This document shows, piece after piece, positions 7,811 through 62,803 of a stretch of 64,000 nt of DNA. The DNA is taken from assembly GCF_003596405.1 (NCBI RefSeq), contig NZ_QYUR01000002.1:884501-948500 (forward strand). Direction: 5' to 3'. The translations under genes were made by a program, and so were the position numbers. The stretch is from Pseudomonas cavernicola (GTDB lineage Bacteria > Pseudomonadota > Gammaproteobacteria > Pseudomonadales > Pseudomonadaceae). Each line of letters opens with the position of its first letter. Positions within the stretch are counted from its first letter, which is position 1. A model generated the notes under the pieces. The model saw nothing but the letters and a program-made list of their open reading frames with translations. It did no database searches and had not been told where the DNA came from.

Positions 7811-7865
7811 GGGACACCCGTTTTATTGCTGTTATGGGTTTGAACCGAGCTTAGCCTTGTTCATT

Positions 7866-7892
7866 TTTTTACACAATAGTTATGTAAAAAAT
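7866..7892. promoter_or_regulatory. Candidate operator in the spuA-spuI divergent region
   Basis: Perfect inverted repeat TTTTTTACA / TGTAAAAAA with a 9-bp spacer, 56 bp upstream of the spuA start and ~195 bp upstream of spuI. The rest of the 276-bp divergent region (7811-8086) is unremarkable apart from TTGACA at 8006 without a good -10 at the right distance. Binding by PauR or another polyamine regulator is inference. Confidence 0.45.
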
Positions 7893-8086
7893 TAAACACA
7901 CCTCGCTGAGCGCCGCGCCGGCCAAGGCCGCGCGAGGGGTGACAATGCTCTGCAGCGCCCTAAAAACGGCCGTCACGCCCCTTTTGAGGGCAAAATGTGG
8001 CACTATTGACAGCGTGAGGCGTTTAAGATTGACTCACACCCCATCAGTCGAATGATTGATATTTTTAACAAAATAGGTGTTGCATC

Positions 8087-52693: not shown

Positions 52694-52850
52694 AGAGTCC
52701 TCATTTGCCGCTCATCGGTCGGCGCAGTTCAAGGATTAACGCAGCCGGGGAAAGGCGCGGGCAGCATACGATGATCGACTGCCACGGCCCTGCCGACTGC
52801 TCAGGGGTTCTTTGTTGCGTTATTACTTTTCTTTCTGGGTACCAAAGGAC

Positions 52851-52972: not shown

Positions 52973-54414
52973 TAGATGCCGAGGCAGAGGTATTTGATTT
53001 CCAGGTAGTCTTCGATACCGTACTTGGAACCCTCACGGCCCAGGCCCGAAGCCTTGATGCCGCCGAACGGCGCCACTTCGGTGGAGATGATCCCGGTGTT
53101 GATGCCGACGATGCCGTACTCCAGCGCCTCGGCCACACGGAACACCCGGCCGAGGTCGCGGGCATAGAAGTAGGACGCCAAGCCGAACTCGGTGTCGTTG
53201 GACATGGCGATCACTTCGGCCTCGTCCTTGAAGCGGAACAGCGGCGCCAGCGGGCCGAAGGTCTCTTCCTTGGCCACCGCCGCGTTGTTCGGCACGTTGA
53301 GCAGGATGGTCGGTTCGAAGAAGTTGCCGCCCAGGCTGTTGCCGCCGGCGACCACGCTGGCGCCCTTGCTCACGGCGTCGGCGATATGTTCCTGGACCTT
53401 GGCCACGGCCTTCTCGTCGATCAACGGGCCGGTGGTGATGCCGTCGTCCAGACCGTTGCCGATCTTCAGCTTGGCCACCGCGGTTTTCAGCTTCTCGGCG
53501 AAGGCGTCGTACACGCCGTCCTGCACATACAGGCGGTTGGCGCACACGCAGGTCTGGCCGGCGTTGCGGTACTTGGAGGCCAGCGCGCCGTCGACCGCGG
53601 CATCCAGGTCGGCATCGTCGAACACGATGAACGGCGCGTTGCCGCCCAGCTCCAGCGAGATTTTCTTGATGTCCTTGGCGCATTCGGCCATCAGCTGGCG
53701 ACCGATCTCGGTCGAACCGGTGAAGGACAGCTTGCGCACGATCGGGTTGCTGGTCAGCTCGCCACCGATGTCGCCGGCACTGCCGGTGACCACGCTGAGC
53801 ACGCCTTTCGGGATACCGGCACGGTGCGCCAGCTCGACCAGCGCCAAGGCCGAGAACGGTGTCTGGCTGGCCGGCTTGATCACCATGGTGCAGCCGGCGG
53901 CCAGGGCCGGGCCGGCTTTACGGGTGATCATCGCCGCCGGGAAGTTCCACGGGGTGATCGCCGCGGTCACGCCGATCGGTTGCTTGATCACGATCAAGCG
54001 CTTGTCCGGTTGGTGGCCGGGAATCACGTCGCCATAGATGCGCTTGGCTTCCTCGGCGAACCACTCGATGAAGGAGGCGGCGTAGACGATCTCGCCCTTG
54101 GCTTCGGCCAGCGGCTTGCCCTGTTCCAGGGTCATCAGGCGGCCGAGGTCGTCCTGGTTTTCGATCAACAGCTCGAACCAACGGCGCAGCTTGTTGGCGC
54201 GGTCCTTGGCGGTCAGCGCACGCCAGGCCGGCAGGGCCTTGTCGGCGGCTTCGATGGCGCGGCGGGTTTCCACAGCACCCATTTTCGGCACAGTGCCGAT
54301 GATCTCGTTGGTGGCCGGGTTGTTGACCTTGATGGTCTGGCCGTTGTCCGCGTCCACCCAGGCGCCGTCGATATAGGCTTGCTGGCGGAACAGTTGGGCG
54401 TCTTTGAGTTGCAT
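52972..54414 (-). CDS. gabD: Succinate-semialdehyde dehydrogenase GabD
   Basis: 480-residue NAD(P)-dependent aldehyde dehydrogenase. The general-base Glu lies in SLELGGNAPFIVFDDAD and the nucleophile Cys in NAGQTCVCANRLYV; TPWNFPAAMITRKAGPALAAG is the cofactor loop. ATG at 54414 (MQLKDAQLFRQQAYIDGAW) has AGGAG upstream; the frame runs to 54453. Oxidises succinate semialdehyde from GabT to succinate. Confidence 0.95.
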   Translation of the reverse strand: MQLKDAQLFRQQAYIDGAWVDADNGQTIKVNNPATNEIIGTVPKMGAVETRRAIEAADKALPAWRALTAKDRANKLRRWFELLIENQDDLGRLMTLEQGKPLAEAKGEIVYAASFIEWFAEEAKRIYGDVIPGHQPDKRLIVIKQPIGVTAAITPWNFPAAMITRKAGPALAAGCTMVIKPASQTPFSALALVELAHRAGIPKGVLSVVTGSAGDIGGELTSNPIVRKLSFTGSTEIGRQLMAECAKDIKKISLELGGNAPFIVFDDADLDAAVDGALASKYRNAGQTCVCANRLYVQDGVYDAFAEKLKTAVAKLKIGNGLDDGITTGPLIDEKAVAKVQEHIADAVSKGASVVAGGNSLGGNFFEPTILLNVPNNAAVAKEETFGPLAPLFRFKDEAEVIAMSNDTEFGLASYFYARDLGRVFRVAEALEYGIVGINTGIISTEVAPFGGIKASGLGREGSKYGIEDYLEIKYLCLGI

Positions 54415-54789
54415 AGCCGTCTCCTTTACCCCCGACACACAGGCACCGGGCAAAATTGTTGTGACTCGACCCAGCTTAGACAGCTGCAGTCAGAAATAGT
54501 GGATGACCGTCGTACCGACTGAGCCCTGACGGCGGCAATTGGAACAAGGCGCAGACCGCTGAGTCCGGTATGCCCGTGTTCGCGTCGAAGGCGTTCGAAA
54601 TCTCAAACGAATCCTAGGGTCGTGACAGGCAAAGGGCAATAGCCCGTTCAAAAAAATTAACGAAATCCGATTAAGAGTGACGCTTTTCTGATCACTAGCA
54701 GGCAAGCCTAGTACTTTCGTTCAATATCACGAACAAGTCTCCCTGGCATGGACGCCTGCCAACGAGATGCGTATCATGGCGCCCGCATC
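54415..54789. other. Intergenic region between gabD and tRNA-Arg
   Basis: 375 bp holding the divergent promoters of gabD and the tRNA. I see no convincing -35/-10 pair, operator or repeat. Confidence 0.5.
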
Positions 54790-54866
54790 GCACCAGTAGC
54801 TCAGCTGGATAGAGTACTGCCCTCCGAAGGCAGGGGTCGTGGGTTCGAATCCCGCCTGGTGCACCA
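54790..54866 (+). tRNA. tRNA-Arg (anticodon CCG)
   Basis: 77 nt with encoded CCA. Acceptor GCACCAG pairs with CTGGTGC; D-arm GCTC...GAGT; anticodon stem CTGCC/GGCAG around loop CTCCGAA, anticodon CCG (reads CGG); T-arm GTGGGTTCGAATCCCGC. Its last 32 nt are the attachment site of the following island, and insertion leaves the tRNA intact. Confidence 0.97.
54835..54866 (+). repeat. Left attachment repeat (att) of the tRNA-Arg island
   Basis: 32-bp sequence starting GGTCGTGGGTTCGAATCCCG and ending GGTGCACCA, the 3' end of the tRNA. It is repeated exactly at 62772-62803. Confidence 0.95.
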
Positions 54867-54976
54867 TTTTCTGTAACTGCTTGTCGGGTATAGATTTCCC
54901 GACAAACACCGGGTTTGAAAGGCTAAGTGGGGCACTGTGTAGTGCTTTTAGGTGGGGCATCGCAACGGTGCCGACC

Positions 54977-56809
54977 ATGCCAGCCCAACCCGCTTTCCTC
55001 ACTCTTAATCGCCACGGAACCTACTACTTTCGCGTAGTAATCCCAAAGCCGTTGCGCTCTGCATTCGGCTTGCAACGCGAAATCCGCCGCTCCCTGAAAA
55101 CCGATAGCCTACGGCTAGCGCTTCGCCGTGCGCGGCAATACGCTGCACGCTTCGAAACTGCTTTTGACAAGGTGCTGGGCGTGGTAGACCAAAACGATTA
55201 CGAGCCGACTGATGAAGACTACGAACTGTTCATGGAGGAGATTGAGCAGGCTGGTCGGGGTGAGCCTTTAGGCGCTTGGTCGAGTAGTCCGGCTGAGCCT
55301 GAGCAGAAAGCCAGCTCAGCGCTTACAGACGAAGAATGGCAAAAAATCGATCAGCAGCAACGTTGGAGTGCTATCGCTGAAGTGCTGACTGGCAATGCCA
55401 AGCGGAGTATTCCAGAGGACCGAAAAGCGCTCGCAGACCAGCTTTTTAAGGCGGGTAACGGCATCCCAGTGCCAAGGCTCCGGAAGCTGCTACCGAGCCT
55501 CCTAGATGAGCTGGTGCGGCAGCGGCTCGGTAGTCCGGGCGCAACCGTAGCAGCACCAGCACAGGGCACAGCGCCGTCAGCATCGCAACCTCCAGGCCCT
55601 ACGCTGTATGAGCTTTGGTTGCTTCTGCGTGAGTCTGACAAGCGCCTGAATAGAAAAAAATCCCCCAGCGCCCACACTGACGAACAGGGACACGCCCGCA
55701 GGCTTACCATCCTGAGCGGTAACAGGCCGTTTGGTTCACTATCGCTAGACGACATCAATCAGCTGTATCTACTTACTCAGCAGGTCAAAGCCCTTCCCGG
55801 CAAAAATATTCCGCCACCTGATTCACCTATTGAATCAGTCCTTGCCTCTCCAAGGGACGACCTGATTAGCGGGCCAACTATTCAGAAGATGATCATCCGG
55901 CTTCGCGTGCTGCATAAGTTCGCTTACGCCAAAGGCTACACACACATCGACCCGGCCAAAACTGAAGCTCCATCAGTCAGCAGTGAGACCGGGCGTATCG
56001 CTCCAAAAGACAGGCCGTTTTCCAAAGAAGAGCTGCACGCAATTTTCTCCGGCTATCTCTACACAGGAACAGATAGCGGTTCAGCCAATCTCGTCTTCCC
56101 CTACCAATTCTGGCTTCCGCTGCTTGGTCTCTTTACTGGAGGGCGGCTCAATGAACTCTGCCAGCTCGAAACAACCGACATTGCTCAAGAGGCGGATACA
56201 GAAATCTGGTTTGCTCAGCTTGTTGAGGAAGGCTCGAAATCGCTGAAAAACAATCACAGCAGTCGATTCATCCCTATCCATAACGAACTGATCAAAATCG
56301 GATTCCTGGATTTTGTGGCGCAAGCTCAAAGAGAAGGTCGAAAAAACCTATTCTCAGACGGGCTCACCTACCAGAAGATCAAGGGCTGGGGCGGAATCGC
56401 AACCACCTTCTTCACCAGGATGCCAAGCCCCAGCACAAAGTATGGGGGCTACTTCCATAGCATCGGAATTCGCAAGCGCCTCCCTGATGGCAAGCCCGAC
56501 GGCAAGAAATTTCACGCTTTCCGACATACCTTTATTGATCTGCTTCGGAATACTAGCGATGAGGCATTGCCGCTCATCACTGTATTAACGGGACACGCGG
56601 CAAAGAACAAGAACCAGTCGGATGATTACGGCTCAGGGTTCTGGCTCTCAACACTGCACAGAGCGCTGCACACAGTGAAGTTCCCCATAGACCTCTCAGG
56701 CATTACCTATGCTGACTTTGAGGCGCGGCTGGGGCACATACTGAAGCCATGCATTCAGGAGCATCGTGATAGGCACGGCCTTAATCCATCACTCCACCCC
56801 GCCAGCTAG
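54977..56809 (+). CDS. Tyrosine site-specific integrase of the island
   Basis: 610 residues from ATG 54977 ([20 protein letters not shown]); the frame extends back into the tRNA. N-terminal DUF6538-like segment ([20 protein letters not shown]), SAM-like core, then the catalytic domain: Arg near 389 in [17 protein letters not shown], HxxR near 513 in [12 protein letters not shown], His near 540 in [16 protein letters not shown], Tyr nucleophile probably near 550. No strong ribosome site. Position beside attL is typical for integration at the tRNA 3' end. Confidence 0.92.
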
Positions 56810-56911: not shown

Positions 56912-57220
56912 GTTTCAGAGGCCCGAGATAGCGCCGTTCACCAAGCTGATTTCAACAGATTTACTGAACGGCTTGCAGCTAGGCGGGCTTTGCCTTTCTG
57001 TATGGCTTACTAGGCGACAGCAAAGAGCCTGGCTCAACGCAGCTAACCAATTAGAACAATCCGCTTTTCAACTCAGCGCCAGCCCCTCTCAGATGCCTAT
57101 ACCAACCTGAGAGGTCGGGAAAAATCTTCCCGCGCCTATCATCTTTCCTGTAGACACATGCCACATGATAGAAATATCATCTGCCTATCGACTTCAAACA
57201 AACTTGATAGGATGGCACCC

Positions 57221-57838
57221 ATGAGCAATGCACGTATCTACCTGAGAGCATCGACGAAGGAACAAGACAGCCTGCGAGCCAAAGCCCTGCTTGAAGACTT
57301 CGCCGCTGAGCACAAACTGACCATTACCAATATCTACAGCGAAAATATCAGCGGCACCAAGCTAGACCGCCCAGAGCTTCAACAACTGCTCAGTGATGCT
57401 AGCCAAGGTGACGTGCTGCTGGTGGAGTCTGTCGACCGGCTCAGCCGTCTTTCTCAGGATGAGTGGCACCAGCTCAAAACAACCATCAGAGCGAAGGGCT
57501 TACGCTTGGTTGTGGCTGACCTCCCGACCTCTCACCAGCTCATTGACGATAAGGGCATCACAGGCCAGATCATGCAGGTTATCAACGACATGCTGATTGA
57601 CCTGATGGCAACGATGGCTCGCCTCGATCAAGACAAGAGAGTTGATCGAATCAAACAGGGCCTTGCCCGCCGCCGCGAACGTGGGGAGGCAATCCCCTCA
57701 CGGGGAAAATCTAACGCCTGGGATGAAGTAAAAGCCATCATGGCGAAACACCCGGAGTTGTCTGTCGAGCAAGTAGCCAAGTTAGCAGGGTGTGGCGTGG
57801 CTACTGTTTATCGAGTTAAGGCTGCGGCAATGCCTTAA
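57221..57838 (+). CDS. Serine recombinase (resolvase/invertase family)
   Basis: 205 residues. Catalytic Ser11 in ARIYLRASTKEQDS, then GTKLDRPELQQLL and VLLVESVDRLSRLSQDEW, all typical of resolvases; the C-terminal HTH is ELSVEQVAKLAGCGVATVYRVK. ATG at 57221 (MSNARIYL) is chosen because earlier in-frame starts add unrelated residues. It could resolve dimers of an excised circle or invert a segment; no obvious recombination sites were found nearby. Confidence 0.88.
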   Translation: MSNARIYLRASTKEQDSLRAKALLEDFAAEHKLTITNIYSENISGTKLDRPELQQLLSDASQGDVLLVESVDRLSRLSQDEWHQLKTTIRAKGLRLVVADLPTSHQLIDDKGITGQIMQVINDMLIDLMATMARLDQDKRVDRIKQGLARRRERGEAIPSRGKSNAWDEVKAIMAKHPELSVEQVAKLAGCGVATVYRVKAAAMP

Positions 57839-57964: not shown

Positions 57965-58054
57965 ATGAACAAACAACTTTTTACCAACCGACGTTATAAG
58001 GAAAATACAAATGCCTCATACCGAGAAAACCGCAAGCGAGTTCATGGAATCTGA
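57965..58054 (+). CDS. Possible 29-residue leader ORF
   Basis: Short frame MNKQLFTNRRYKENTNASYR... preceded by GAGAGA, overlapping the start of the next gene in another frame by 44 bp. It could couple translation of that gene. No homology known; may be chance. Confidence 0.3.
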   Translation: MNKQLFTNRRYKENTNASYRENRKRVHGI

Positions 58055-58445
58055 TAACGGGAGTTATGCTCGCCTAGCAGATCACCTCAACAAATACGCA
58101 CCCCGCTCTGACGGTTCCCGCTGGACAAAAGACGCCGTTTACCATTTCTGCCGCACCCACAGCATCCAATCTAAGCGCCGCTGCAAAAACCAACCCGGAG
58201 TTGGTATTCGACAACGCGCCAACACCCGCAAACAAATCATTGCAGCCTCAATTGAAGCACTTACAGCAAGTGGCCGGACAATTACTGATATAGCCCCATT
58301 TAGCTTAAAAGAAATCACCCAGCTATCCGGCGCCCCCTATATCAACGTCAAGAATAACTGGCCGCAACTGGAAAATGAGCTGCTGATTCTTGCCGGACTG
58401 CCACCGAAGCCGCGCATTCTCACCATCATCGAAGACGACGAGTAA
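58011..58445 (+). CDS. Unknown island protein (144 residues)
   Basis: Begins MPHTEKTASEFMESDNGSYA and is basic in the middle (SKRRCKNQPGVGIRQRANTR). The N-terminal YARLADHLNKYAPRSDGSRWTKDAVYHF segment looks like a small DNA-binding fold with recombinase-like spacing. AAGGA precedes ATG 58011. It lies 5 bp before the next gene, so the two form an operon. Family not recognised. Confidence 0.65.
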   Translation: MPHTEKTASEFMESDNGSYARLADHLNKYAPRSDGSRWTKDAVYHFCRTHSIQSKRRCKNQPGVGIRQRANTRKQIIAASIEALTASGRTITDIAPFSLKEITQLSGAPYINVKNNWPQLENELLILAGLPPKPRILTIIEDDE

Positions 58446-58450
58446 CGGAA

Positions 58451-59092
58451 ATGGCCGGCATAAGAAAGACACCTGACCAATCTGCCCAGGCAGTTATCTT
58501 GCGTGAGGCCGGCTACACCTTGCCGGCCATAGCGGATCGTCTCAACATCAGCCTGAGCACCACGCAACGACTACTAAAGCGACACGGTGCTGTTGCTGGT
58601 GCTGCCACACAAGCGCTGATAGAGAAGGCCAGAGAAGACCTCCTACACAACGCCTTTGCCCTAGATGCTGTTCAGCAGACTGCCGCTTCGCTGGTGCTCG
58701 ACGACTTGTCGCTCAACCGTTTGATGAGGAATAAGCTCGCACAGGCTGTCGAGGCTTTAGAGGTGACTCCGGACAATGCTCCTATCGTATGTCGAGCCTT
58801 GGCTGCATGCGCAACCACACTAAAACTTACACAGCAGGTTGGCCGTCAAGCCCTTCCTCTGGACAAGCTTGAGCAGGCGTTAACAGTCGAAGAACTGCCG
58901 GAGCTTCAGATTCACATCATGACAGACCACGACGTTGCAGTTCTGCGGGCAGAGCAGCGACTCCAGGACGCCGAGCTGAACGGAAACCTCGCCGGAGTCA
59001 GTGACGAACAAGAAACCCTGCGCTGGTTGGCTGAGAGAAGAGAACACCAAACTTTGTGCGCGGTTGACGACGACATCGTAGTCGAAGGCTGA
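58451..59092 (+). CDS. HTH-containing island protein (213 residues)
   Basis: N-terminal HTH (QAVILREAGYTLPAIADRLNISLSTTQRLLKRHG, about residues 13-47), a helical middle and an acidic C-terminus. ATG 58451 follows the previous stop by 5 bp. Resembles DNA-binding accessory proteins of small mobile elements (terminase-small or replication-accessory type), but I cannot name the family. Confidence 0.65.
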   Translation: MAGIRKTPDQSAQAVILREAGYTLPAIADRLNISLSTTQRLLKRHGAVAGAATQALIEKAREDLLHNAFALDAVQQTAASLVLDDLSLNRLMRNKLAQAVEALEVTPDNAPIVCRALAACATTLKLTQQVGRQALPLDKLEQALTVEELPELQIHIMTDHDVAVLRAEQRLQDAELNGNLAGVSDEQETLRWLAERREHQTLCAVDDDIVVEG

Positions 59093-59223: not shown

Positions 59224-60231
59224 ATGACAGAACATAAGAAACCGCCCCTCGAACTTCCCGGCCTGCAAAGGCCGCTTCTCCCGGAGGAGATCGGGCGGTT
59301 TGCCACGGAAAAAGCAGCCGAGCGCGAACCTCTATCACTGGAAGAAAAGAGCGCGGCCTCAGACTCCCCATCGTCGAGTCTCGCGGAATCTTACAAATTT
59401 GGCACGACGCGGAAGAGAACAGTGAAGCTCCAGGCCCCGCAGGAGGCGTGGACTCTGGCCATAATCACGGGAATCCTGAGCACTGATTTTGGAGCTATTA
59501 GTAATTCTCCCTTTACTCACTTCCAACAAAAGCTTGCTAGGGATTGGCTAAGAACGAGGTATTGGGGAGAGGTAATCATCCTCAATCCTCCCCAGGTAGA
59601 CGACCTACCTGAGTGGGATGACCTGCCTGCCGACGTGAAGCATTTCTTCAAGCTCTCGTACCTGCTCAGCCAACCCGGAGCACAGTTCTTCACCATCCGG
59701 CTTGATCCTTCCATTGGTGAAAAAGCTTTGGCAGCGCCACGCGGCCCAAGTGATTGGCTGGCTGACAAAATCAAACGAGCGCTTGAGTCTGTCGGAGTTC
59801 CGGCTGATCAGATTGCCTTTGTTCTTGAGTTCGCCCCGAAGCAAGCTAAAACGCTGCACAAGCTGCATATTCATGGAGCCCTTTGCATTCCAGCCGAAAT
59901 GTTAGAGCGAGCCTCAGAGGCGCTTAAAAAGGCCCTGGCTCCTGAATACACGCATCACGGCAGGAACAAGGCAGTGATGCTTGAAGCTCCAAGGAAGGTC
60001 GCCGACGTTGCCAAGTATGTGGTGAAAGAATCCAAAATCACGAAGGACAGGATCATCCGGCTTCTCAATCAACTCCACGCCACCAACCACGGCAAGGGAG
60101 CCAATCCGCACCGGGCCTCAGAGATTGCGACTGCTGGCGGGCGCGCTATCTATACCAATCTCCGGAGTTCCTTGTTCGGTAAGCAGGAGGCCTTCAACAA
60201 GGCTTTCCACAAGGCGATTCGGGAAAACTAG
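59224..60231 (+). CDS. Candidate HUH-type replication initiator (Rep)
   Basis: 335 residues from ATG 59224; an in-frame TTG at 59188 is less likely. Three motifs occur in the order and spacing of rolling-circle Rep proteins: motif I GAQFFTIRLDP (153-162), HUH motif H215-I-H217 in LHKLHIHGALCI, and motif III Y265-VV-K268 in VAKYVVKESK. The N-terminal ~60 residues are hydrophilic. An inverted repeat CCCCTGG...CCAGGGG lies just upstream (59159-59205) and a strong hairpin just downstream. Function is inferred from motifs only. Confidence 0.6.
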   Translation: MTEHKKPPLELPGLQRPLLPEEIGRFATEKAAEREPLSLEEKSAASDSPSSSLAESYKFGTTRKRTVKLQAPQEAWTLAIITGILSTDFGAISNSPFTHFQQKLARDWLRTRYWGEVIILNPPQVDDLPEWDDLPADVKHFFKLSYLLSQPGAQFFTIRLDPSIGEKALAAPRGPSDWLADKIKRALESVGVPADQIAFVLEFAPKQAKTLHKLHIHGALCIPAEMLERASEALKKALAPEYTHHGRNKAVMLEAPRKVADVAKYVVKESKITKDRIIRLLNQLHATNHGKGANPHRASEIATAGGRAIYTNLRSSLFGKQEAFNKAFHKAIREN

Positions 60232-60294: not shown

Positions 60295-60596
60295 AGGAGA
60301 GCATGGGCTTTTCCAGGGGTTTTGCATCTTGTCTGACCACCTGATTGCATCCAACGTGACAGGCTGAGATCGGCCACAAGCCGGCGATAGCCAAGCATTT
60401 CGTGCTGTAGTAGCGTTGTGCCCAGAATCTCCGCAAAAGCTGGAACACACGACCGGCCTCACGCAGATGTATAACTCCCTTATGCCGTCCCCGAGCCGCT
60501 GTAACGCCCTTTCTAGACAGGGAAACCAAGAGGACAAGGAATGTTATCCACCACGCCCGTAAAAGCCTTATCACACCATTAGGCGTCTATTTATAG

Positions 60597-61379
60597 TTAG
60601 CAGGCAAAGATGAAGATCCTCACATGGAATTGTAACGGTGCATTCCGCAAGAAGTATCAAGAAATTGAGAGGTTTCAGGCAGACCTGTATGTAATTCAAG
60701 AGTGCGAGAATCCAGAACATACGAAAGGGGAATACAGAAATTGGGCTGGTAGTTACCTTTGGTATGGCGATAACAAGAACAAAGGTATAGGCATATTTGC
60801 AAAAAATGGCGTAGAAATTCAACGCCTAGACTGGAAAGACAATAGTCTCCAGTTGTTTTTGCCTGTCAGGGTCAACAATCAGTTCAACATGATCGGGGTG
60901 TGGACAAAACAGGCCAACTCACCAACATTTCGCTACATTGGCCAGCTTTGGAAGTACCTAGAATTACACAAAGAGAAAATGGCCGCAGGCAGCACGGTGT
61001 TGTGCGGTGACCTCAATAGCAACAAAATCTGGGATGTATGGGATCGTTGGTGGAATCACAGTGACGTTGTCAGAGAACTAGATGCCGTAAACATGCAGAG
61101 TCTTTACCATTTGGCTACAGGTGAAGAGCAAGGTTCCGAATCCGCCCCGACCCTATACCTCCAAAGAAATCTAAAAAAGGCATATCACATAGACTTTGCG
61201 TTTGCCTCTGAAGGCATGTTTAATCCACAGAAAGATACGATAACAGTGGGTAGTCACAACCCTTGGCTGGAGTTCAGCGACCATGCCCCAGTTATATTCA
61301 CAATTGCCTGCTAACAAGTCGCTCAAATCGTTCGCTTCGCTCACTGGGACACGCTGACGCGTGCCCTTTAGCTTAATCG
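60597..61379 (+). mobile_element. Integron gene cassette 1
   Basis: Left boundary G/TTAGCAGGC (60596-60605) is the exact complement of the attC start GCCTGCTAAC at 61306-61315, so the excised circle would have perfect outer core sites. The single ORF fills the cassette and its stop codon lies inside the attC core, as in known cassettes. Confidence 0.8.
60610..61314 (+). CDS. Endonuclease/exonuclease/phosphatase-fold protein (cassette-borne)
   Basis: 234 residues of the EEP (DNase I-like) superfamily: Asn7 in ILTWNCNGA, Glu31 in VIQECENP, VLCGDLNSN in the middle, HIDFAFAS and the terminal Asp224-His225 in EFSDHAPVIF. It could be a nuclease or a phosphodiesterase. AT-rich codon use compared with the chromosome. 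Sole gene of cassette 1; ribosome site weak. A defence role is conceivable but unproven. Confidence 0.85.
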   Translation: MKILTWNCNGAFRKKYQEIERFQADLYVIQECENPEHTKGEYRNWAGSYLWYGDNKNKGIGIFAKNGVEIQRLDWKDNSLQLFLPVRVNNQFNMIGVWTKQANSPTFRYIGQLWKYLELHKEKMAAGSTVLCGDLNSNKIWDVWDRWWNHSDVVRELDAVNMQSLYHLATGEEQGSESAPTLYLQRNLKKAYHIDFAFASEGMFNPQKDTITVGSHNPWLEFSDHAPVIFTIAC

Positions 61380-61386
61380 TTAGGCC
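61306..61386 (+). repeat. Integron attC site 1
   Basis: Starts with core GCCTGCTAAC, followed by AAGTCGCTCAAATCG, internal stem GGGaCACGC/GCGTGCCC, then TTAGCTTAATC and core GTTAGGCC (61379-61386). The cleavage point G/TT is at 61379-61380. About 81 bp, normal attC size. Confidence 0.85.
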
Positions 61387-61404
61387 TCACTTAGGAAAAG
61401 TCAG

Positions 61405-61890
61405 ATGGATGAAGCGACAGTTAATCTTATAGTGCAAAAGATTGTCTCTCAGACTGATATACAGGTTGCGTTAATAGGCTTGGCGGGTGCTGTTGTTGGC
61501 AGTGTATTTACCATGTTTGGTAATTTCGTAATGCATCTTCTTTCATCGAAGAAAGAGGTTCGAATGAAGATTCTGTCCAAGGAGTTAGAGCGCCTGTATG
61601 CGCTGGAAGAGTCAGTTGGTATTTTCGTTGAGGAAGTTGGCTCTTACAAAGAAATAGACAGAATAAAAATTACTTCATTGGCAAGTCAAATAGATGACTT
61701 CGCGGGTAAGTTTAGGCGTTACAAAAATCTAATGCAGGCAATCCGAGATATTTCTCAGTACGGGAAAATACTAGCGGCAGAAAAAACAACTAATCCATCT
61801 GCTCAGCCGGAAAGGAAGGAATTAGAGGAAAAATATTCGGCTTTCGTTGAGCAATACCACAATGTTGTTAACCATATTAAAGCGGCCTAA
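61405..61890 (+). CDS. Single-pass membrane protein with coiled coil (cassette-borne)
   Basis: 161 residues: a hydrophobic segment about 20-45 (VALIGLAGAVVGSVFTMFGN...) then a long helical, charged region (KKEVRMKILSKELERLYALEE ... ERKELEEKYSAFVEQYH) likely to form a coiled coil in the cytosol. Its stop TAA (61888-61890) lies inside the attC2 core. AT-rich. Family unknown. Confidence 0.75.
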   Translation: MDEATVNLIVQKIVSQTDIQVALIGLAGAVVGSVFTMFGNFVMHLLSSKKEVRMKILSKELERLYALEESVGIFVEEVGSYKEIDRIKITSLASQIDDFAGKFRRYKNLMQAIRDISQYGKILAAEKTTNPSAQPERKELEEKYSAFVEQYHNVVNHIKAA

Positions 61891-61962
61891 CAAGTCGTTG
61901 AAGACGCGCCCTTCGGGCGCTGGTATCTGCTAAAGCAGGCCCCTTAACTCAGGCGCAAGGCC
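61884..61962 (+). repeat. Integron attC site 2, with altered right core
   Basis: Core GGCCTAAC at the left is the exact complement of the cassette 2 left boundary GTTAGGCC (61379-61386). AAGTCGTTGAAG and CTTAACTCAGGC follow the classical 59-be pattern, but the right core reads GCAAGGCC instead of GTTAGGCC, losing the TT at the cleavage point. Confidence 0.8.
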
Positions 61963-61995
61963 TAGAACTCTATCGCCGCAATATAAGGTAAAAAC

Positions 61996-62364
61996 ATGAA
62001 GTGGTTAATTTTAGCTTTACCATTCTTTATCTCAACCAATGCAGTATCTGCTGAATTCATTCACCCCATGGAATTTGACGGATCTGAAAGCCAGAAAGAA
62101 ACAGTCATAAGTTACATCAAGGCCAGGGTGCAACATGACTATTGCGAGAGCGGCCTTGACATGTGCCAGAACACAACGCTTCGAATGATGGAAAATAAAA
62201 ACCTAACCGCTTTCAAATCAGCCACCAAGGCTACTGATAGAAAAGTAATGGATCGCGTTATTAAAGACTACTGCCAAAGTGGTTTGGATATGTGCAACTA
62301 CACTACAATTTTCATGATGTACCAAAAAAACTCAGAAGCGAGCTCTCAATCATTAGAGTGGTAG
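61996..62364 (+). CDS. Exported protein with duplicated Cys motif (cassette-like)
   Basis: 122 residues: signal peptide of ~19 residues (MKWLILALPFFISTNAVSA), then two copies of the motif YC-x-SGLDMC-xx-TT (YCESGLDMCQNTT and YCQSGLDMCNYTT) about 42 residues apart, each preceded by a helical stretch. The two CysX6Cys pairs suggest two periplasmic disulfide loops. Its stop is followed after 2 nt by GCCTAAC, the start of an attC-like core. Family unknown; AT-rich. Confidence 0.75.
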   Translation: MKWLILALPFFISTNAVSAEFIHPMEFDGSESQKETVISYIKARVQHDYCESGLDMCQNTTLRMMENKNLTAFKSATKATDRKVMDRVIKDYCQSGLDMCNYTTIFMMYQKNSEASSQSLEW

Positions 62365-62771
62365 CAGCCTAACAATCGGTATATGGACTCTCCCCACAAG
62401 TAGTGAGCAAAGTTCTTCCAACCCTGTCGTCAGTGCGGTTGCATTCGTATATTCGGCCTGTGCTGGGCGTTATCGCCCTGGCCACGCTGTAGTTCGCGCA
62501 ACGGGGGCCAGTCGCTTATGGACGAAGGCAGGTAGCTCCCGACGGTGAACGACCGTAAAGGGCCGTCGGGTGACTCGCTGGCAGTGCCGTTTTTTTCACC
62601 CATCTACAGTGTATGGGCTGAGGTATGGGCTGGAGAGTCCACAGTCCTGAGCTTTCCTTGCATAAGCGTGGGTTCGCCGGATAAAGTCTAGTGGGCCATC
62701 AACCAGCCCTATCAAGGTGTGACACTGGCGCCAAACCAGCTTTGAAAGCCCCGGAAATAGGGTGCTCTACC
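62365..62771. other. Right end of the island
   Basis: 407 bp without a gene. It starts with a lone attC-type core GCCTAACAA (62367-62375), contains hairpin arms CCGACGG / CCGTCGG (about 62539-62569) and TATGGGCTGAGGTATGGGC direct units at about 62611-62630, possible integrase arm sites. No promoter is clear. Confidence 0.5.
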
Positions 62772-62803
62772 GGTCGTGGGTTCGAATCCCGCCTGGTGCA
62801 CCA
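62772..62803 (+). repeat. Right attachment repeat (att) of the island
   Basis: Exact copy of 54835-54866. Upstream of it (GTGCTCTACC) the tRNA anticodon arm is not restored, so only the tRNA 3' end is duplicated. Confidence 0.95.

Follow-up and report, generated by a model that had tools for sequence, protein, structure and literature searches.

An attI site and three gene cassettes without an integron integrase in a tRNA-Arg island of Pseudomonas cavernicola

The usual picture of an integron is of a single integrase that supplies the attI site next to it with cassettes. The accessible parts of two papers already describe arrays without an integrase, pseudogenes of the integrase gene intI, and mobilisation in trans (PMC12444791, PMC2426708), and in the first of these, cassettes of the type called CALIN (clusters of attC sites lacking integron integrases) are said to be mobilisable in trans. 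The array considered here lies in a 64,000-nucleotide stretch of the genome of Pseudomonas cavernicola (contig NZ_QYUR01000002.1, positions 884,501 to 948,500), hereafter the window, whose numbering we use throughout. A first-pass annotation, made from the letters alone, had read it as a CALIN within a tRNA island. That reading was right as to a captured array without an integrase, and the array does show the two features by which a CALIN is operationally defined (at least two attC sites and no intI nearby), but it was incomplete, since the array starts at an attI site. The array is thus an integron without its integrase. Its attI and three cassettes occupy the cargo slot of a tRNA-Arg island devoid of an integron integrase (IntI), and comparison of sequences suggests that the cassettes were probably loaded by an IntI acting in trans.

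The attI site and its cassettes

The attI site first came to notice through an 83% likeness to the beginning of a cassette array in the chromosome (locus L012, contig C6). The site scores highly against a sequence model that we built from 22 attI sites (Table 1), and a profile from which the rows for the window and for a second island of the same genome (L051) had been left out recovered it with an E value of 1.1e-33, with no matches in 20 shuffled windows. The site directly adjoins the first cassette, as attI does in a complete integron.

The two attC sites of the first-pass annotation proved to be real. A covariance model from 20 attC sites of this genome, both window sites being among its seeds, gave two matches and no others in the 64 kb at E ≤ 5, and a sequence profile made without the two sites recovered both of them (E values of 3.3e-17 and 3.8e-7), with no matches at E ≤ 0.01 in 20 shuffled windows. 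As claimed, the stop codons of two open reading frames (ORFs) fall within the R'' cores of these sites (61312-61314 and 61888-61890). An early attC finder that required R'' and R' to be complementary within one site had missed the window sites; its rule is wrong for integrated cassettes.

The left edge of cassette 1 (GTTAGCAGGC at 60596) mirrors the start of its own attC at seven of seven variable positions, and that of cassette 2 (GTTAGGCC at 61379) does so at six of seven. Over 79 cassettes the mean fit of an edge to its own attC was 5.04 of 7, as against 3.06 of 7 for mispaired edges; none of 10,000 shuffles gave as high a mean, and a fit of at least six positions was seen in 35 of the 79 cassettes and in 2.3% of mispairs. 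On established integron biology, mirrored edges of this kind point to entry of the cassettes as circles, in agreement with the first-pass annotation. Cassettes 1 and 2 each consist of one ORF, an attC site and a left edge complementary to that site; in cassette 3 the mirror is weak. The third gene had been described as ending at a lone GCCTAAC core. The core is present (62367-62373), but it lies just past the stop codon (62362-62364) and not around it, and it went unscored by the covariance model. It is followed by an attC-like stretch that is long and either atypical or decayed, and that recurs in other arrays. The right segment to which the core belongs is shared in part by L051 (86%), L094 (90%) and L014 (92%), and the copy in L051 is 87.7% like one in an IntI-linked array (L149).

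Evidence from structure was mixed. In the 20 seed sites the proposed stem positions pair in 83.1% of cells, and both the covariation score and the number of cells changed on both sides were reached by none of 500 shuffles; in the same seeds two of the five measures, the number of pairs changed on both sides and that of further pair types, were reached by 72 and 68 of 500 shuffles. Single-strand folds of the window sites, those of the bottom strand being a check that the first-pass annotation had proposed, were not significantly better than folds of shuffled sequences (z of -1.06, -1.03 and -1.28 for the bottom strand and -0.34, -0.07 and -0.83 for the top strand).

The absence of an integron integrase, noted previously for the island, extends to the whole assembled genome, in which no protein exceeded the 265-bit cut-off of TIGR02249 (the best reached 79.3 bits) and none was found at 1e-50 or 1e-40. 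The place where intI would start, to the left of attI, retains no more than a scrap that has diverged strongly, if it retains anything. Its protein score over codons 4-21 was reached by 2 of 1000 shuffles and its nucleotide identity of 0.34 by 42 of 1000; codons 22-31 were not significant. The case for a truncated intI of 21-31 codons at this place is accordingly weak. The tblastn match of the window is confined to sequence lying upstream of where intI begins. Clear remnants of intI were seen only at other copies, namely L083, L075 and L012, the last of which has a clear intI start that runs for 39 codons before a stop. It is possible, if weakly supported, that the stretch left of attI is a diverged intI start, perhaps with a cassette promoter of the kind reported, in the available text of PMC8876359, inside intI of P. 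stutzeri.

Copies of the attI block and the island that carries one

Loci with attI are numerous in this genome. The attI model found 13 of them at E ≤ 1.6e-13, nine nearly full length and four partial; one of the partial loci, in L094, is split (L094:11007-12289) by an inserted segment of some 1.3 kb in which two frames are transposase-like. The loci L108 and L109 belong to a single duplication, their segment of about 7 kb being repeated at 98.7% identity. An attC site follows within 1.5 kb downstream at 8 of the 13 loci, and the attC matches of the whole genome at E ≤ 0.01 number 52, spread over some 18 places. Segments of 5-7 kb that are repeated at 98-99% adjoin attI copies and arrays at L094:1-5386, L108, L109 and L092 (contigs C2 and C8), and at L014:12896-16297 an attI site and cassette array lie directly downstream of a gene for what is, by eye, a DnaE2-like polymerase.

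Two groups of near-identical blocks carry the argument. The first joins the window to L051, a second island of the same genome, which has a resolvase and an integrase of another kind (Arm-DNA-bind_3 plus Phage_integrase). In L051 the order is backbone, left block (95.7% identical to that of the window over 281 bp), eight ORFs in cassette positions, and right segment, and its helix-turn-helix (HTH) protein and last backbone protein are 67% and 33.5% identical to their counterparts in the window. The two islands resemble each other much more closely in the attI block than in the backbone, so the block has moved or been exchanged between them. The cassette ORFs of the window had no match at 1e-8 in any other locus retrieved, L051 included. 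The second group, also without intI, comprises two blocks in L052 and one in L094 (93-95% over 178 bp), whose flanks are unrelated and whose first cassettes differ; the block of L014 is more distant (81%). No match to the left block was found in plasmid and phage records. A repeat at the left end was considered as a hallmark of the block and given up: its exact pattern occurs at three places in the genome, all by attI, but with three mismatches allowed it occurs at eight, about half of them not at attI.

First-cassette edges at attI fit at six or more of seven positions at 8 of 23 sites, among them those of the window (7), L051 (6), L111 (7), L080 (7), L113 (7) and L012 (6), and at five of seven at both L052 blocks, L014 and L094. 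The first cassette of L051 is also first at an IntI-linked attI of another species (L149 in genome G242), where its ORF is 89.9% identical at the amino acid level. The two copies are closely alike between the crossover and attC; the attI and attC bodies themselves differ. The common cassette indicates that the L051 island takes its cassettes from a pool that integrase-bearing integrons use as well.

The island of the window is bounded by exact 32-bp copies of the end of tRNA-Arg(CCG). An integrase beside the tRNA gene and a direct repeat of the tRNA end mark it as a tRNA-targeted genomic island, as the first-pass annotation had it. An island at the same tRNA in another genome (L100 in G139) has an integrase 61%, a resolvase 61%, an HTH protein 58% and a last backbone protein 41% identical to those of the window, and its cargo, unlike that of the window, is without attI or attC. 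Neither kind of site was present in any of the eight stretches examined around relatives of the last backbone protein, five of which also have the HTH protein; the integron is therefore best seen as cargo of the island. The label Rep, given by eye to the last backbone protein, was dropped, as family searches gave no match. In two relatives of the island other cargo stands behind that protein (L101:9698-11737 and L102:11125-12261), by eye DUF262-like and macro-domain-like. Beside the island, a dehydrogenase gene (54001-54429) has a 98% identical stretch on contig C3 (L014:2815-3243). Rfam searches of the window at gathering thresholds returned only tRNA, sRNA and gabT RNA, the last two being a gabT RNA motif upstream of an aminotransferase gene (52740-52801) and a Pseudomonas P1 sRNA (7814-7993).

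Table 1. Features of the island and its integron in window coordinates
Feature	Coordinates	Strand	Evidence and remarks
attI, cassette crossover at G60596	60468..60600	+	attI sequence model, 105.9 bits
Left block, attI at its right end	60320..60599	+	shared with L051
Place where intI would start	60403..60467	-	at most ~21-codon strongly diverged scrap; start codon absent
Cassette 1	60597..61379	+	ORF 60610-61314, endonuclease/exonuclease/phosphatase fold, PF03372 2.2e-7
attC1	61306..61386	+	covariance model (match 61310-61385, 85.4 bits) and leave-out profile
Cassette 2	61380..61955	+	ORF 61405-61890, membrane/coiled-coil by eye
attC2	61882..61963	+	covariance model (match 61886-61961, 67 bits) and leave-out profile; right core degenerate (GCAAGGC)
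Cassette 3, right end provisional	61956..62474	+	ORF 61996-62364, small exported protein by eye
Right segment, made up of GCCTAAC core, atypical long stretch resembling attC, and tail	62365..62635	+	
tRNA-Arg(CCG)	54790..54866	+	ARAGORN; last 32 bases (54835-54866) are left island repeat
Tyrosine integrase of island (DUF6538 start), not an integron integrase; start codon provisional	54839..56809	+	
Serine recombinase/resolvase of island	57158..57838	+	Pfam Resolvase 1.6e-25
Backbone protein without family match	58011..58445	+	46.9% and 48.3% amino acid identity in L100 and L104
HTH DNA-binding backbone protein	58451..59092	+	relative in island L051
Last backbone protein	59224..60231	+	relatives in 9 of 398 genomes of the genus, own included
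Right 32-bp island repeat (attR)	62772..62803	+	100% identical to 54835-54866

As to what the cassettes encode, the nuclease-fold protein of cassette 1 belongs to a large family (2899 proteins) with relatives in 7 of the 398 genomes, its own included; a sequence search yielded no solved structure for it. The protein of cassette 2 had one other relative in a protein search. That of cassette 3 belongs to a set of 124 proteins, the query included, with named relatives in Vibrio, Vreelandella, Shewanella, Yersinia and others. A role in defence, suggested in the first-pass annotation, is not supported: PADLOC models gave no match for two of the three proteins and a partial one (E of 0.0088) for the third. 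The further expectation that these ORFs would recur beside attC sites was not borne out. The nuclease-fold protein lay beside a match to the attC model at none of eight other loci in the genus, and for the exported protein nothing convincing emerged, the three of five plasmid records examined giving one weak match (E of 0.066) some 2.5 kb off.

Orphan attI sites in the genus

We surveyed the 398 genomes using the best eight and best five candidates per genome, so that the counts that follow hold among the matches listed. An attI site (E ≤ 1e-5) was present in 73 genomes and an IntI (E ≤ 1e-40) in 48; 32 had both, 41 attI only and 16 IntI only. At E ≤ 1e-12 there were at least 81 attI sites in at least 57 genomes, and most of those listed (64 of 81) lie away from any detected integrase, the other 17 being beside IntI, that is, within 2.5 kb of it. 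These 64 orphans are spread over 48 genomes, 19 of which have an IntI elsewhere. In three species (L078, L117 and L119, from genomes G001, G358 and G147) attI stands without intI and the upstream sequence is alike, likely at one conserved chromosomal place.

The complete genome of strain CC6-YY-74 makes the question of loading in trans directly testable. It has a full-length IntI (a 332-residue frame) by its own attI near 0.11 Mb and, at 3.56 Mb, an orphan attI with five attC sites. The cores of the two attI sites align without a mismatch (63 of 63 bases, one internal gap), and the whole sites are identical at 107 of 131. One paper gives the view that each attI is matched to the IntI it belongs with (PMC8946536), a notion that the identical cores of CC6-YY-74 fit. 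The attI core of the window is identical to the IntI-linked core of CC6-YY-74 at 60 of 63 positions. Fit to the consensus core was 0.84 for 31 orphan sites and 0.80 for 10 IntI-linked ones, a weak comparison since orphans dominate the consensus.

A broader picture can be put forward tentatively: integrase-free integrons might be dispersed through Pseudomonas, with attI blocks that multiply, ride tRNA islands with unrelated integrases, and are filled by the IntI of the cell or of a neighbour, the islands in effect outsourcing the capture of genes.

Routes of loading and comparison with described systems

How might the array of the window have been filled? The attI block would already have been without intI when it was copied, and its copies would later have received circles at attI, delivered by an IntI whose gene lies on another element or in another lineage or has since been lost. 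The block itself would most likely have spread by homologous exchange between arrays and by segmental duplication. If the blocks were indeed copied after the loss of intI, then no integrase stood in cis when their differing first cassettes entered or were exposed by precise recombination. Movement of cassettes is favoured by two observations, namely the first cassette common to L051 and L149 and, indirectly, the agreement of the attI cores in CC6-YY-74.

Several observations weigh against loading in trans. Both attC2 and the third site appear to be decayed. In blocks of the window type the trace of intI is weak, and in L014 it is unsupported; a scan for a cassette promoter turned up two matches only, which are weak and overlap each other at the crossover. 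With no IntI found in this genome, the platform may no longer be active. First-cassette edges fit at five or fewer of seven positions at 15 of 23 sites, three of them at only one to three, and no cassette of the window was found beside attC elsewhere. Several orphan attI sites of other species (L078, L117 and L119) probably survive as old remnants at a single place, and there are several without a nearby attC, so not every orphan need be a working platform. Finally, homology between arrays ends at the attI crossover, and a later swap of left blocks by homologous recombination would leave the same picture.

A further explanation, which we consider rather unlikely, is that the island captured a complete integron, its cassettes entered while the integrase was in cis, and intI later decayed or was deleted in place, with nothing happening in trans. 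The decayed attC2 and third site and the missing IntI suit it, as does the 39-codon intI start kept by L012 on contig C6, and intI pseudogenes are common, amounting to nearly a third of intI genes according to the accessible part of PMC2426708. What it does not readily explain is the existence of two near-identical groups of intI-less blocks (window and L051; L052 twice and L094) with different first cassettes, of which recombination at attI after the loss of intI is the simplest reading.

Homologous recombination without any IntI, whether by swapping arrays between conserved ends or by swapping an attI block onto arrays already loaded, is a serious rival, if an unlikely one. Two otherwise diverged islands share just such ends, the left block and the right segment; homology would naturally stop at the crossover; attC sites, about 75 bp long, nearly repeat one another; and elsewhere in the genome there are attI copies on 5-7 kb segments that are repeated at 98-99%. 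Against it stands the cassette common to L051 and L149, which matches from crossover to attC between attI and attC bodies that differ, the trace expected of a moved circle.

It is quite improbable that attI copies spread as the right end of an unusual cassette moved by IntI itself. Mobility of delta-attI cassettes is reported for class 1 and 2 integrons (PMC12901181), and L052 holds two attI sites in the same orientation about 6 kb apart, but by eye no crossover-like edge is present at the left ends of the blocks. That the array is a plain CALIN with an accidental likeness to attI, to which the lack of an integrase nearby might have pointed, is refuted by the leave-out attI profile.

Loading in trans, if it has occurred, would mean that cassettes pass into mobile elements without the integrase having to move, and that surveys based on intI, or ones that call such arrays CALIN, miss landing sites. 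As far as our searches show, what is new is the presence of many attI sites without intI in one genome (13 loci and no integrase, two of the loci being on islands) and of one attI block on islands with different integrases. A literature search at the level of titles and abstracts, which is no proof of absence, found no report of multi-copy attI without intI.

The locus can be set beside four described systems. Like integrase-less attC clusters, it has two attC sites and no intI nearby; unlike them it has kept attI, a proper landing site for circles. The integron of P. stutzeri, compared by its published description, is of the same genus and likewise chromosomal, whereas here there is no intI, and many attI sites occur in one genome and on islands. 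Integrons with intI pseudogenes, such as those at the Xanthomonas ilvD locus, have lost the integrase and kept the array, as here (PMC12444791, PMC2426708), but their integrase gene is almost always at one locus, whereas in P. cavernicola near-identical intI-less attI blocks lie at several. Cassettes of the delta-attI type in class 1 and 2 integrons (PMC12901181) also place extra attI sequence inside arrays. In those cassettes, however, the attI piece replaces attC downstream of a gene, whereas here attI stands upstream of whole arrays.

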